Assembly (NCBI GenBank): GCA_002716945.1
Contig: PBCF01000002.1
Location: 62,001-126,000, forward strand
Length of the DNA: 64,000 bases
Reading direction: 5' to 3'
From: Gammaproteobacteria bacterium
GTDB taxonomy: Bacteria > Pseudomonadota > Gammaproteobacteria > GCA-002705445 > GCA-002716945
Shown here piece after piece: positions 4,712 to 13,407 of this stretch. Within the stretch, counting starts at the first letter, position 1, and each line of letters starts with the position of its first letter. The translations under genes and the position numbers were made by a program. Below the pieces are notes generated by a model. It did no database searches. It was not told where the DNA came from and worked only from the letters and a program-made list of their open reading frames with translations.

Positions 4712-5212
4712 TTACGATGATTGCAGAGAAGCTTTCTTAACTATGGCTTTATGCAAAACAAGAATAGTGAATGAGAATAGTATTGTTGAAATTAGGGAAT
4801 ATTGAAAAAAGGGTATTCCAGCTAAATAACAACTCAGAAGACCTAATATATTTAACGGATACAATCCCATAGTTAACCAAACTCCAAAATTACTGATTAT
4901 AAAAAAAATAGACGGGCATAGTATAGATGCAAAAAAAACGGAAACTATGTCTAATTTTTTTATAATTAATGGGCTTAAGTATGTAATTAATAGGAACGAA
5001 GCATACACAAAAAACATTGAAGGATTATAACCAAGATATAAATCACTTAATACTTGAGAAGCCATAACAATAATTACCGCTAAACTTCTACTTTGTATAT
5101 AAAATCCAGTAAAAATCATAAGAGATAATGTTGGGGTAAAATTAGGTATATCAGAGAGCAATCTACTAATTATTAATAGAAAAAAAAGTGTAATGGGTAT
5201 TATTATTTTCAT
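4712..5212 (-). CDS. DUF6580 membrane protein, candidate B12 uptake partner
   Basis: A 166-residue, very hydrophobic protein with about five to six membrane segments. It resembles the DUF6580 family, which has an ECF S-component-like look: a PNFTPTLSL motif after helix 1, SDLYLGYNPS between helices, and SNFGVWLTMGLYP later. It lies 24 bases downstream of btuB on the same strand, so it is probably in the same cobalamin-riboswitch-controlled transcript. No btuFCD or ECF module is in the window. The natural inference is passage of cobalamin or a precursor across the inner membrane, unproven. Cysteines occur in SILCPS and LLSCYL. It shares its stop region with nrdB (8-base gap, convergent). Confidence 0.8.
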   Translation of the reverse strand: MKIIIPITLFFLLIISRLLSDIPNFTPTLSLMIFTGFYIQSRSLAVIIVMASQVLSDLYLGYNPSMFFVYASFLLITYLSPLIIKKLDIVSVFFASILCPSIFFIISNFGVWLTMGLYPLNILGLLSCYLAGIPFFQYSLISTILFSFTILVLHKAIVKKASLQSS

Positions 5213-5236
5213 ATTTATAGGGAATTATATCACATA

Positions 5237-7006
5237 TTAAAAATTTGTTGTTATAGTAACATAAGTAGAAATACCTTCTGTGTTATAATTATGAGCTCGT
5301 CTATACTTTTTATCAAACATATTATTGATTTTAAAAGAAATAATAAAGTTTTTTGTTTTATGTAAATAATTTGTATTAAATAGCATATAACCGCCTAATC
5401 GTTCATAATCATAAATTGAATTATCTCTTGTACTCTCACCTATCATAGATAGAGAAATAATATTATTCACATCAAAGTCATAAGAGAATTTACCAACTAT
5501 TTTATTTCTTGGTCGTCTTGAAAGTAGTGTATCATTAGTTAAATCATCCGATTCTTGATATGTATAATCAATTTTATAGTCAATTAATTTAAAGGAGTTT
5601 TTATAAGCTATTTCAATACCAGTTATTCTTGCTTTATTTAAATTTTGCATAATAGATCCATCAGACTCAATTAAATTTCTGATGTCATTATTAAACACAG
5701 ATAAAGTTATATAATTAACAGGTGAGAATTTATATTTTAATCCAATTTCAGTAGAAATTGATTCTTCAGGTTCTAAGTTTTTATTTCCACCATAGCCAAA
5801 TAAATCAGTTCCATCGGGAGATCTAAATGACTTACCTAAACCAGTTGTAACTATGGTGTTATTGTTTAAGTGATATCCAAAATTTATATTACCAGTAAGA
5901 TAATTACCATATCTTGAATGATTAATAAACCTCAAGCCTGTATTTATTATGCTATTTAAATTTGGAATATATTGTGATTGTATAAAAAATTCATTCACAT
6001 GATTTGTTATTTTAAAAGATGTCCCATATGATAATTCATATAGTGCTTCATCCGTATATGTAAAACCTAAAATTGTATTTGCATCAAAAAAATTATAATA
6101 ATTATTTTCTAAATTAATTTGATTTATTTTTGTATGAGTATAGTCAGTGGCAGATGAACTAGATTGGTCAATTTTATTTTGTTTCGAAATATAATTAATA
6201 TTTGTTTTATAATCAGTATACTTTTTTAATAGCGATAATTTGATATGTCTGTCTTTATGATCTTGCATTAAATTACTACCAAAACTATCATATTCTGTAG
6301 TTCCGTCACTTTGATAATAATCTGTTTCAAAAATAGTTTTATCTAACTGATATTGATAATTAATATTTATATTTCTGTTTTTATATTCATGATCTTGAGA
6401 CGAACTCACTTTTGCTTTATAAGAGTCAGATCTAATCTCTGAATAATTTAAATTCAGATTGTAAAGATTATTTGTATATTTTCTATAAAAATCAATTTTA
6501 TTAGTATTGAAACGTCCTGAACTTAATGAAAATGATCCTGAATTTTCTAGATCCTTCTTTGTTATAATATTGATTACTCCACCTATTGTGTTTCGCCCAT
6601 ATAAAGTTGACATGCTACCTTTTGCAATTTCAACTCTATCAATCATTTTAATTGATATATGTTGTATTGATGGAACTCCTAATGTTCCTGGATTTAATTC
6701 AACACCATTAACCAATACTTTTGTATGATTACTCTCAGTACCTCTTAGAAAAATTGATTTTGTTTGTCCTGGGCCACCATTGCTACCTATACTAATTGAA
6801 CTAGAAAAATTTAATAAATTATCAACAGTATCAAAGCCATATTTCTCGATCTCTTCTGATGTTATGATTTCAATAGCAGTCAGAGAGTCAAAAATAGAAC
6901 TAGGTCTCTTAGGAGTAATTACAATCTCATCTAAATTTGAATCTGCGAATACAATATTGAACGCAAGAATATTAATTAAAAATGTTTTTAAAAAGTTTCT
7001 ACCCAT
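5237..7006 (-). CDS. btuB: TonB-dependent vitamin B12 receptor, BtuB-like
   Basis: Outer-membrane, TonB-dependent transporter for cobalamins. A signal peptide (about residues 1-22, ending in NIVFA) is followed by a TonB-box-like segment DEIVITPKR, a plug domain (FLRGTESNHTKVLVNGVELN, then YGRNTIGGVINIITKK) and a 22-strand barrel ending in the aromatic terminus ITTNF. The length (589 residues) is normal for BtuB. I choose the ATG at 7006: the upstream GTG at 7021 overlaps the GGAGGTG Shine-Dalgarno at 7025-7019, although the resulting spacing of about 14 bases is long. Substrate assignment rests mainly on the cobalamin riboswitch directly upstream; a cobinamide or other corrinoid substrate is possible. 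Confidence 0.93.
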   Translation of the reverse strand: MGRNFLKTFLINILAFNIVFADSNLDEIVITPKRPSSIFDSLTAIEIITSEEIEKYGFDTVDNLLNFSSSISIGSNGGPGQTKSIFLRGTESNHTKVLVNGVELNPGTLGVPSIQHISIKMIDRVEIAKGSMSTLYGRNTIGGVINIITKKDLENSGSFSLSSGRFNTNKIDFYRKYTNNLYNLNLNYSEIRSDSYKAKVSSSQDHEYKNRNININYQYQLDKTIFETDYYQSDGTTEYDSFGSNLMQDHKDRHIKLSLLKKYTDYKTNINYISKQNKIDQSSSSATDYTHTKINQINLENNYYNFFDANTILGFTYTDEALYELSYGTSFKITNHVNEFFIQSQYIPNLNSIINTGLRFINHSRYGNYLTGNINFGYHLNNNTIVTTGLGKSFRSPDGTDLFGYGGNKNLEPEESISTEIGLKYKFSPVNYITLSVFNNDIRNLIESDGSIMQNLNKARITGIEIAYKNSFKLIDYKIDYTYQESDDLTNDTLLSRRPRNKIVGKFSYDFDVNNIISLSMIGESTRDNSIYDYERLGGYMLFNTNYLHKTKNFIISFKINNMFDKKYRRAHNYNTEGISTYVTITTNF

Positions 7007-7021
7007 CTTAGAAATAAGCAC

Positions 7022-7160
7022 CTCCGCTTTATGGGGTTCCCATCATGTTGGTCTTCGGACTCTATATACCGTTGCGGGGGCAGTGCAGATTATCTTTTAC
7101 TGACTTTCCCAACTTCATGAGACTTTTAATTTTTAATGCCTGTACCTTTTGATAAAAGGG
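7022..7160 (-). promoter_or_regulatory. Cobalamin (AdoCbl) riboswitch controlling btuB
   Basis: Read on the minus strand, the conserved 3' half is unmistakable: CTGCCCCCGCAACGGTA (near 7095-7065), then AGTCCGAAGACC, the hallmark of cobalamin riboswitches. Upstream are GTTGGGAA and AGATAATCTG, matching the GGGAA and AATC core segments. The 5' GGTACAGGC element appears to lie in the last codons of the upstream ABC permease. A small hairpin (ATGGG, loop AAC, CCCAT) and the GGAGGTG ribosome site follow the aptamer. I see no U-tract terminator, so control is probably at translation. The exact 5' limit is estimated. Confidence 0.93.
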
Positions 7161-7896
7161 ACAATGCAATGATGTATAATATAAATGTTATTGAAGTAAT
7201 AATCAAGATAGAAAATTCTATGTTCATTTCTTCTATACCTAAAAAACCATATCTAAATGCACTTACGATATAAGCAATGGGATTGAATAATGAAATGTTT
7301 TGCCAAATTTCAGGCAATAAATCAATAGCGAAGAATGTCCCCCCTAAATATGTTAGTGGTGCGAGAATAAAAGTAGGAACAATGTTTATATCATCCCAAG
7401 TTTTTGCAAATACAGCATTAATAAATCCGGCAGTTGAAAACAAAAATGCGGTCATGAATGTCATAAACACAGTCAACCATATATTAACAATTTCGAGATC
7501 AGTAAAAAAAGTTACAACTACATATACAGCTATTCCTACAGCAAAGCCTCGCAAAACACCACCAGTGATATAACCAAGTAAAATAATATTGTTTGGAACA
7601 GGAGAAACTAATAGTTCTTCAATACTTTTCATAAACCTTGAACTATAGAATGAACCTACTACATTCATATAAGAGTTTGATATTACGGGCATTATAATCA
7701 GTCCTGGTATTATATAATCCATATAACTGAAATTTTTTATTTCCCCAATTCTTTCACCGATGAAATTACCAAAAATTATTATATATAAAAACATGGTTAC
7801 TACCGATGGCAGAATAGTTTGTATCCATATTCTGGCAAATCTTAAAAATTCTTTTATTACTATGGTCTGATATGGAATTAAAATTTCTTTTTTCAT
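7126..7896 (-). CDS. yadH: ABC-2 type exporter permease, YadH-like
   Basis: Integral membrane subunit (256 residues, about six helices) of an ABC-2 exporter. Length and sequence are close to E. coli YadH, including MKSIEELLVSPVPNNIILLG and LSLFNPIAYIVSAFRYGFLG, typical of the ABC-2 family. It lies 6 bases downstream of its ATPase gene. Substrate is unknown in the family. The final codons (SKGTGIKN and stop) appear to double as the 5' part of the cobalamin riboswitch of btuB. That does not by itself link the exporter to B12. Confidence 0.9.
   Translation of the reverse strand: MKKEILIPYQTIVIKEFLRFARIWIQTILPSVVTMFLYIIIFGNFIGERIGEIKNFSYMDYIIPGLIIMPVISNSYMNVVGSFYSSRFMKSIEELLVSPVPNNIILLGYITGGVLRGFAVGIAVYVVVTFFTDLEIVNIWLTVFMTFMTAFLFSTAGFINAVFAKTWDDINIVPTFILAPLTYLGGTFFAIDLLPEIWQNISLFNPIAYIVSAFRYGFLGIEEMNIEFSILIITSITFILYIIALSLLSKGTGIKN
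7178..7206 (-). promoter_or_regulatory. Candidate promoter for the riboswitch-btuB transcript
   Basis: On the minus strand TTGATT (7206-7201) is followed after 17 bases by TATATT (7183-7178). Transcription would begin near 7170, just before the riboswitch 5' element. The promoter lies inside the 3' coding part of the ABC permease gene, so btuB could be transcribed independently of the exporter. Confidence 0.5.
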
Positions 7897-7902
7897 AATC
7901 GT

Positions 7903-8814
7903 CTAATCATCCGTAAGTTGAATAAAAACTTCTTCTAGTTTATTTCTTTTATTCAAAATACTTCCAACATCAATTTTCATATATTTTAATTTTTCAATTA
8001 TATCTGTTACAGACATTGTGTCCGTTGTTATTTCACACGTATATGAATCAATTTTATCTATCTCACAATCATCTATCACAGGCATACCATTAAGTGGTTG
8101 AGTAGTTTTCACAATATAAGTATGTTGATTTTTTATACGATAAATTTCATCCATAGTTGATTTCTGAACAATATTACCTTTATGAATAATTGCAAGATTT
8201 TTACATAGTCTTTCAGCCTCTTCTAGGTAATGGGTAGTTAGTATGATAGTGACACCTTGTTCATTTAGTTCCTTGAAAAAATCCCACATATTTAATCTAA
8301 GTTCTGTATCTACACCAGCCGTCGGTTCATCTAGTATTAATAATTTAGGATCATGAATCAATGCTTTGGCTATCATCATTCTTCTTTTCATCCCACCTGA
8401 TAATTCTCTTGGTGTATTTTTTCGTTTATTCCAAATACCTAATTGATTTAAAAGTTTATATATTTTTTCTGCAGCTAATCTTTTTTCTATACCAAAGTAT
8501 CCAGCAATATTAAACATTGTTTCTTCTACTGTAATAAATTGATTTAAATTATATTCTTGTGGAACCAAACCAATGTTTCTTTTAACTAGTTCTGGTTTTT
8601 GTTGAATATCATCACCAAACACACAAACTCTTCCGGATGTGATTGTAACTAGAGAAGAAATTATACCTATCACTGTTGATTTCCCCGCTCCATTTGGACC
8701 CAAAAATGCGAAAAGATCACCTTTTTTCACTGACAAATTGATACAATTCAATGCTTGAACACGATTTTTGTATATTTTATCTAAATTAATTATATCTATT
8801 GCATTTTCACTCAT
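7903..8814 (-). CDS. yadG: ABC exporter ATP-binding protein, YadG-like
   Basis: ATPase subunit (303 residues) that powers the adjacent ABC-2 permease. Walker A GPNGAGKST near residue 39, Q-loop LVPQEYNLN, signature LSGGMKRRMMIAKAL, Walker B LLILDEPTAGVD and the H-loop ILTTHYLEEAE are all intact. The C-terminal ~80 residues form the extension found in YadG/CcmA-like exporters, ending in NKLEEVFIQLTDD. It is the first gene of a minus-strand pair and is divergent from mcl. Confidence 0.93.
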   Translation of the reverse strand: MSENAIDIINLDKIYKNRVQALNCINLSVKKGDLFAFLGPNGAGKSTVIGIISSLVTITSGRVCVFGDDIQQKPELVKRNIGLVPQEYNLNQFITVEETMFNIAGYFGIEKRLAAEKIYKLLNQLGIWNKRKNTPRELSGGMKRRMMIAKALIHDPKLLILDEPTAGVDTELRLNMWDFFKELNEQGVTIILTTHYLEEAERLCKNLAIIHKGNIVQKSTMDEIYRIKNQHTYIVKTTQPLNGMPVIDDCEIDKIDSYTCEITTDTMSVTDIIEKLKYMKIDVGSILNKRNKLEEVFIQLTDD

Positions 8815-12750: not shown

Positions 12751-13407
12751 ATGGAAAAATTAGAATTACCCCATAATAAAAAAAGATTATTATTACATTC
12801 ATGTTGTGCTCCATGTTCAGGCGATATTATGTTGCAGCTCAAAGAATCTCAAATAAATTATACTGTCTATTTTTATAATCCAAATATACATCCCAAGAAG
12901 GAATATTTATTGAGAAAGGAAGAAAACATGAAGTTTGCTGATAAAAACAATATCTCTTTTGTTGATGCAGATTATGATCCAGCTAATTGGTTTAATTTAA
13001 CAAAAGGAATGGAATGGGAGCCTGAAAGAGGCATAAGATGTTCCAAGTGTTTTGATATGCGTTTTTTAAATACAGCCCAATATGCACATATTAACGGTTT
13101 TGATATTTTTTCAAGCACATTAGGTATATCAAGATGGAAAGATTTTAATCAAATTAATGTATCAGGAGCTTATGCAGCATCTAAATTTGAAGATTTATCT
13201 TATTGGTCATTTAACTGGCGCAAAAATAATGGTTCACAAAGAATGTTAGAAGTTTCAAAAAAGGAACAATTTTATCAACAAGAGTATTGCGGTTGTGTCT
13301 ATTCATTAAGAGATACCAATATATGGAGACATCAAAACAATAGACCAAGCATTAAGATAGGTAAGAAGTATTATAATTTCTTAGATAAAAAAACCACCAA
13401 AAACTAA
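12751..13407 (+). CDS. queH: Epoxyqueuosine reductase QueH
   Basis: A 218-residue DUF208 protein that performs the last step of queuosine biosynthesis in tRNA (epoxyqueuosine to queuosine), the non-cobalamin alternative to QueG. The ligand-rich motifs of QueH are visible: [11 protein letters not shown] near residue 17, [11 protein letters not shown] near residue 90, and [13 protein letters not shown] near residue 178, giving the cysteines for the Fe-S cluster and adjacent metal. [10 protein letters not shown] is also typical. The last 27 bases overlap the convergent ampE-like gene. Use of QueH rather than B12-dependent QueG lowers cobalamin demand. Confidence 0.93.

Follow-up and report, generated by a model that had tools for sequence, protein, structure and literature searches.

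DUF6580, a candidate solitary importer of vitamin B12 encoded behind btuB under a cobalamin riboswitch

DUF6580, a small membrane protein encoded directly behind the outer-membrane B12 receptor BtuB, very likely acts in the inner membrane as a solitary importer of cobalamin or other corrinoids, akin to BtuM, and does the job of BtuCDF. The original prediction had named it a good candidate for such an inner-membrane B12 importer, and that proposal is supported by its B12-related gene context, its near-mutual exclusion with BtuC-type permeases, and its predicted fold. Because transport has not been shown, the importer role remains a strong inference rather than proof. What we computed here is the operon, the class of its riboswitch, the fold, the absence of BtuC-type permeases and EcfT, the displacement pattern across genomes and the recurrent B12 context.

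The btuB-DUF6580 operon and its riboswitch

The stretch of DNA analyzed (64,000 nucleotides; hereafter the window) belongs to a gammaproteobacterial genome of 1.09 Mb in 6 contigs, with an estimated completeness of 100%. In order of transcription, its minus strand carries a riboswitch, btuB and the DUF6580 gene:

7042-7121, minus strand: aptamer of an AdoCbl-II (cobalamin) riboswitch, btuB leader (cmscan, RF01689, 35.4 bits)
7022-7035, minus strand: GCGGAGG stretch with the likely btuB Shine-Dalgarno; possible pairing with the C-rich aptamer loop, inferred
5237-7021, minus strand: btuB, TonB-dependent outer-membrane B12 receptor, likely start 7006 (TIGR01779, PDB 1NQF, Pfam Plug and TonB_dep_Rec)
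4712-5212, minus strand: DUF6580 gene (PF20221) at the end of the operon, product of 166 aa with six membrane helices (120 bits, S-component fold)

All three elements of the unit originally proposed are thus confirmed, with a gap of 24 bp between btuB and DUF6580. At its end the operon converges with nrdB, which belongs to a class I ribonucleotide reductase, and it therefore contains no further gene. An ABC-2 type pair (permease and ATPase, 7126-8814, PRK15066/YadGH-like) is encoded on this strand upstream of the riboswitch, a position that it keeps across the window's family. Homologous pairs flank DUF6580, in another orientation, in L109, L110, L112, L125, L136 and L159, and the permease alone was seen in L135.

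DUF6580 is present in 21 of the 25 genomes of the window's GTDB family, including all 11 of high quality. Of the 20 sister loci that were read, all but those cut or broken at the ends of contigs, such as L033, repeat the gene order of the window: DUF6580 is flanked by btuB and the ABC-2 pair and, at its other end, by convergent nrdAB. In these loci btuB immediately precedes DUF6580, save in two genomes (G020 and G022) where the two are separated by an inserted gene on the opposite strand, which encodes a 529-aa radical SAM protein carrying a B12-binding domain (L024:6932-8521 and L033:1891-3480). Since the family shares one inherited locus, this synteny counts as a single piece of evidence.

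A scan of the window at Rfam gathering thresholds returned tRNA only and no riboswitch. A focused scan of 501 bases placed AdoCbl-II at 7042-7121 on the minus strand with an E-value of 9.8e-7, 1.1 bits below the gathering cut-off of 36.5 bits. Of nine sister loci scanned, seven (L022, L024, L028, L029, L031, L032 and L034) have the same element before btuB at 38.6-53.5 bits, above the cut-off; L030 scores 35.1 bits, under it, and L033, with btuB at the edge of a contig, yielded no AdoCbl-II match in the focused scan. The motif is also visible in a 15-locus alignment, in which its core positions are near-invariant. Given the seven matches above cut-off and this alignment, we take the btuB leader element to be a genuine riboswitch of the AdoCbl-II class. 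The window copy resembles other members in core, spacing and position before btuB, differing only in its small shortfall in score, and is otherwise ordinary. How it acts is inferred: pairing of GCGGAGG with the aptamer loop is a probable translational off-switch. In the minimum-energy fold of the leader, GCCCCCGC pairs with GCGGAGGUGC. That fold is no better than those of shuffled sequences (z 0.33), and single-sequence folding is uninformative here.

The assignment of btuB rests on several searches. The best NCBIfam model for its product is TIGR01779 (TonB-B12; E 1.5e-77, below the strict, equivalog cut-off), the best PDB chain is E. coli BtuB (1NQF; E 2.9e-40), and the Pfam domains are Plug and TonB_dep_Rec. 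Judging from the sequence, with its signal-peptide-like MGRNFLKTFLINILAFNIVFA, translation more probably starts at the ATG at 7006 than at the GTG at 7021.

Predicted fold of DUF6580 and comparison with BtuM and CbrT

The window protein matches PF20221 at 120.4 bits over profile positions 7-156 of 162, far above the gathering score of 27. AlphaFold2, given this protein and 64 relatives, predicted six helices with a pLDDT of 95.3 and a pTM of 0.88. When this model was compared with all of the PDB by Foldseek, the top match was BtuM of Thiobacillus denitrificans with hydroxocobalamin (8OVV; probability 1.00, TM 0.74, E 0.089); PanT and ThiT, both S-components, were other high-probability matches. 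A member from Patescibacteria, modeled with a pLDDT of 92.5, matched FolT, BtuM, RibU and ThiT, and among these leading matches BtuM again had the highest query TM-score (0.60, probability 1.00). The E-values are weak (0.09 and 0.14) despite probabilities of 1.00. Weak values are usual for small all-helical membrane proteins, and the weight of the comparison lies in the agreement of two models and their hit lists on one fold class. The earlier guess from the letters alone, that the protein is S-component-like and akin to BtuM, is thus matched by the predicted fold.

At the level of sequence, the likeness to BtuM is faint. Structural alignment gives 13-17% identity, and the BtuM chain among the PDB sequences was not matched by three DUF6580 profiles or by a single sequence; no BtuM alignment was available, so no profile-profile comparison was made. 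One DUF6580 profile matched CbrT (6FNP; E 7e-4), the only PDB chain matched and the only link by sequence to a known B12 protein. Since two other DUF6580 profiles failed to reproduce this match, we take it as a hint only.

Across 65 DUF6580 sequences R17, D57, N108 and W112 are invariant. H21 is shared by 59 of them, and 48 have a histidine in loop 3. The window protein itself has D21 and N64 at the positions of the two commonest histidines (alignment positions 21 and 64), its loop 3 holding an asparagine. The BtuM pocket comprises H28, D67 and Y85 together with an essential C80 in loop 3 (PMC6072759). By eye and without superposition, H21, D57 and Y70 of most DUF6580 members may correspond to the first three of these residues. 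No cysteine is invariant across the 65 sequences, and the axial cysteine of BtuM has no invariant counterpart, which makes BtuM-type thiolate ligation and decyanation unlikely in DUF6580.

It is useful to set DUF6580 beside the known systems. BtuM shares its small six-helix S-component fold, is likewise found beside btuB in genomes that lack ECF modules, and has been proposed to be a solitary B12 importer (PMC6072759). The two differ in the absence of a detected sequence match, in the lack of an invariant cysteine and in range: BtuM has been reported mostly in Proteobacteria, whereas DUF6580 reaches Bacteroidota, Marinimicrobia, Omnitrophota, Planctomycetota and Patescibacteria. CbrT, the cobalamin S-component of ECF-CbrT, also has the S-component fold, but it requires an ECF module and alone fails to complement E. 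coli (PMC5997447), whereas most DUF6580 genomes have no EcfT. The BtuCDF ABC importer is unrelated to DUF6580 in fold, yet would perform the same task after BtuB; in 369 genomes the two are nearly mutually exclusive.

Distribution against BtuC-type permeases and recurrent B12 neighborhoods

The original prediction had noted that the window holds no BtuFCD and had proposed searching the rest of the genome for btuFCD and ECF genes. Whole-genome searches with family models found no FecCD/BtuC-type permease and no CbiQ/EcfT in the window's genome, BtuD and BtuF being outside these searches. The same searches in 14 control genomes matched FecCD in 13 and CbiQ/EcfT in 10. Without a FecCD permease BtuCDF cannot be complete in this genome; the absence noted for the window therefore holds, and for the permease it extends genome-wide.

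The same exclusion is seen across the class. In an even sample of 369 genomes of the class, which is taken to be Gammaproteobacteria, DUF6580 occurs in 57 and FecCD, counted at E <= 1e-20, in 196. This threshold excludes weak FecCD matches (20-35 bits), which cover the model only partially and are probably other ABC permeases. The two are found together in only 2 genomes, against about 30 expected (Fisher p 2e-18); put differently, a BtuC-type permease is present in 2 of the 57 genomes with DUF6580 versus 194 of the 312 without it. The p value overstates the significance, since the genomes are related and no phylogenetic correction was applied. Both kinds of genome occur within nine GTDB families, eight of which include no sampled genome that has DUF6580 together with FecCD. 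This family-level pattern is what the repeated swap of one B12 importer for another would look like.

An ECF module as partner of DUF6580 was considered and rejected. No EcfT is present in the window's genome, and EcfT is convincing in only 3 of 80 DUF6580 genomes. BtuM genomes have likewise been reported to lack an ECF module (PMC6072759). Given this scarcity and the BtuM precedent, a solitary importer is the simplest reading.

Beyond the window's family, B12 genes recur around DUF6580 in other arrangements. Among 53 loci of the class outside that family, a cobalamin riboswitch lies within 6 kb of DUF6580 in 18, a TonB receptor is a neighbor in 21 (in 20 of them on the strand of DUF6580), and a PduO-type cobalamin adenosyltransferase in 15; L069-L071 read riboswitch-btuB-tonB-pduO-DUF6580. 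A cobalamin riboswitch (RF00174) scores above cut-off in 37 of 58 DUF6580 genomes. A scan of named genomes, with an 11-sequence alignment as query, yielded a further 80 loci from Gammaproteobacteria, Bacteroidota, Balneolota, Ignavibacteria, Marinimicrobia, Omnitrophota, Planctomycetota and Patescibacteria, including the Xanthomonas relatives Lysobacter, Thermomonas and Vulcaniibacterium; viral contigs searched for DUF6580 had none. Here the TonB receptor and the adenosyltransferase were again the top two neighbors, and 43 of 50 named DUF6580 genomes searched have a cobalamin riboswitch over cut-off. All 35 TonB receptors scanned match TIGR01779, many of them matching other TonB models as well.

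Over the 133 loci of both sets, 58 have one or more B12 features no farther than 6 kb away: BtuB in 40, a cobalamin riboswitch in 36, an adenosyltransferase in 27, NrdJ-model matches and BtuG-like proteins in 7 each, and MetH in 5. By chance, a gene present once per genome, like the adenosyltransferase with its 27 of 133, would be expected at about half a percent, an estimate made from genome sizes. The other 75 loci show no such feature in that range, some of them being cut by contig ends. Several mapped riboswitch positions, probably on other contigs, did not look like a riboswitch; a motif test and inspection of the sequence served to remove them. Seven that the automatic test did not pass were retained after such inspection, so the riboswitch count for the named loci is partly a matter of judgment. 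On a tree of 135 DUF6580 proteins, B12 linkage changes at least 33 times by parsimony, and at least 9 of these changes are forced by well-supported branches. The linkage is thus not one inherited accident. The association of DUF6580 with B12 genes and cobalamin riboswitches, which the original prediction had proposed to count in other genomes, recurs across many families and phyla. A full btuFCD elsewhere in the genome together with no such association would have refuted that prediction; no BtuC-type permease was found, and the association is repeated.

In the Patescibacteria loci BtuB was not found beside DUF6580. L118 reads nrdJ-cobO-DUF6580, and L145 reads nrdR-nrdJ-riboswitch-x-DUF6580-pduO-x-cobS-cobC-like. 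In both, NrdJ is over the cut-off of TIGR02504 (B12-dependent ribonucleotide reductase); the riboswitch-like matches upstream in L113 and L145 are below the Rfam cut-off. L145:978-8586 forms a B12 salvage cluster (nrdR, nrdJ, DUF6580, pduO, cobS, cobC-like) in a genome of 0.8 Mb. These loci, with their nrdJ and pduO, come close to the nrdJ-cbrS-cbrT-pduO cluster from which the function of CbrT was first predicted and later proven (PMC5997447).

Several other neighbors were observed. A beta-propeller beside DUF6580 in several loci matches BtuG-type chains. Among these chains is 8BLW, a BtuB-BtuG complex. In Marinimicrobia and Planctomycetota a Dph6-like ATP-pyrophosphatase (PF01902 in L121) adjoins DUF6580 in L121, L150, L158 and L175. 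In six Marinimicrobia loci (L116, L140, L151, L152, L156 and L174) a fixed gene lies ~40-60 bp downstream of DUF6580; its product of ~520 aa is secreted or outer-membrane-like, a possible receptor worth a look.

Alternative readings and a proposed route for B12

Might the cargo be a small molecule related to B12, such as cobinamide, alpha-ribazole/dimethylbenzimidazole or cobalt, rather than intact cobalamin? Cobalamin riboswitches also control the uptake of cobalt and precursors, and the cobS and cobC-like genes downstream of DUF6580 in L145, with a CobS match in L143, look as if precursors were assembled there. CbrT, moreover, accepts cobinamide besides cobalamin (PMC5997447). We consider this reading unlikely, however, because the common neighbors of DUF6580 include BtuB and BtuG-like proteins, which handle whole corrinoids, and adenosyltransferases, which act on corrinoids, and because the exclusion between DUF6580 and BtuC-type permeases is as expected if both move the same cargo.

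There are two further readings. In one, DUF6580 is a B12 S-component driven by a borrowed ABC motor, the ABC-2 pair at 7126-8814 being one possibility. Throughout the window's family that pair does adjoin the operon, and other gammaproteobacterial loci have a homologous pair beside DUF6580 in another orientation. Yet the pair in the window lies upstream of the riboswitch and so escapes its control, the models that its permease matches are those of ABC-2 exporters (PRK15066, drrB) and do not include CbiQ, and most of the 133 DUF6580 loci outside the window's family do not show such a pair. Homologues of the pair, E. coli YadGH, sit in a genome that has BtuCDF. EcfT is not convincing in 77 of the 80 DUF6580 genomes, and BtuM is functional in E. 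coli, a host without an ECF module (PMC6072759). A borrowed motor is thus quite improbable, and the ABC-2 pair remains a rival that is not favored. In the other, DUF6580 is a passenger or an accessory beside btuB, such as a sensor or chaperone, and another importer moves B12 across the inner membrane. The 75 DUF6580 genes without a B12 neighbor would fit this, and BtuM and BacA/SbmA-like importers are not excluded in the window's genome. A passenger, however, would not exclude BtuC-type permeases, and the association with B12 recurs in unrelated gene orders and phyla, including Patescibacteria in which no BtuB was found alongside; the predicted fold, too, is that of known vitamin-binding transport proteins. 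We regard this reading as very improbable.

If DUF6580 is a solitary importer, B12 could take the following route. At low cellular cobalamin the AdoCbl-II riboswitch would leave btuB and DUF6580 expressed, and TonB-energized BtuB would load B12 into the periplasm. DUF6580 would bind it in an outward-facing pocket of its six-helix S-component fold and move it across the inner membrane with no ABC or ECF motor, the driving force probably being the gradient created by BtuB. Inside, B12 would be trapped by adenosylation and by binding to enzymes, and rising cobalamin would shut the riboswitch. The adenosyltransferase genes next door suggest such trapping; this, like the substrate of DUF6580, the direction of transport and the lack of a motor, is inferred only.

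In the window's genome, a search for B12-binding domains found only a 505-aa radical SAM protein, beside ABC transporter genes:

G000:C4:355656 (L185:1453-2970): radical SAM/B12-binding protein, from the B12-binding-domain search

MetH or a mutase as B12 user was not found by this search, which did not extend to class II ribonucleotide reductase or QueG, and most sister genomes show no B12-binding domain; this lack of an evident B12 user counts against the importer reading. The gene at 12751-13407 of the window, plus strand, is QueH-like by eye, with no NCBIfam match; QueH is a B12-independent replacement of QueG, and this genome seems to import B12.

In the literature searched (main texts, without supplements or subscription papers) there is no mention of DUF6580, and nothing relevant linked it to "BtuN". 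The S-component fold was surveyed in 2024 (PMC11109136); that survey lists BtuM and some BioY among cases without a motor, and its main text mentions no DUF. A wider proposal, which we hold tentatively and would as a whole lean slightly against, is that DUF6580 is a major unnamed class of motor-less B12 importers, extending from Gammaproteobacteria to Bacteroidota and Patescibacteria, that replaced BtuCDF many times. It would be driven by BtuB-made gradients or, without BtuB, by adenosyltransferase trapping, and most of its members would hold cobalt via histidine and not via the cysteine of BtuM.

Overall, DUF6580 looks like a widespread, unrecognized single-protein B12 importer. If this is true, it would provide a B12 route for streamlined bacteria and for Patescibacteria with B12-dependent ribonucleotide reductase, genome annotation could call B12 uptake correctly, and a second B12 family would join the puzzle of S-component folds that possibly transport without a motor.
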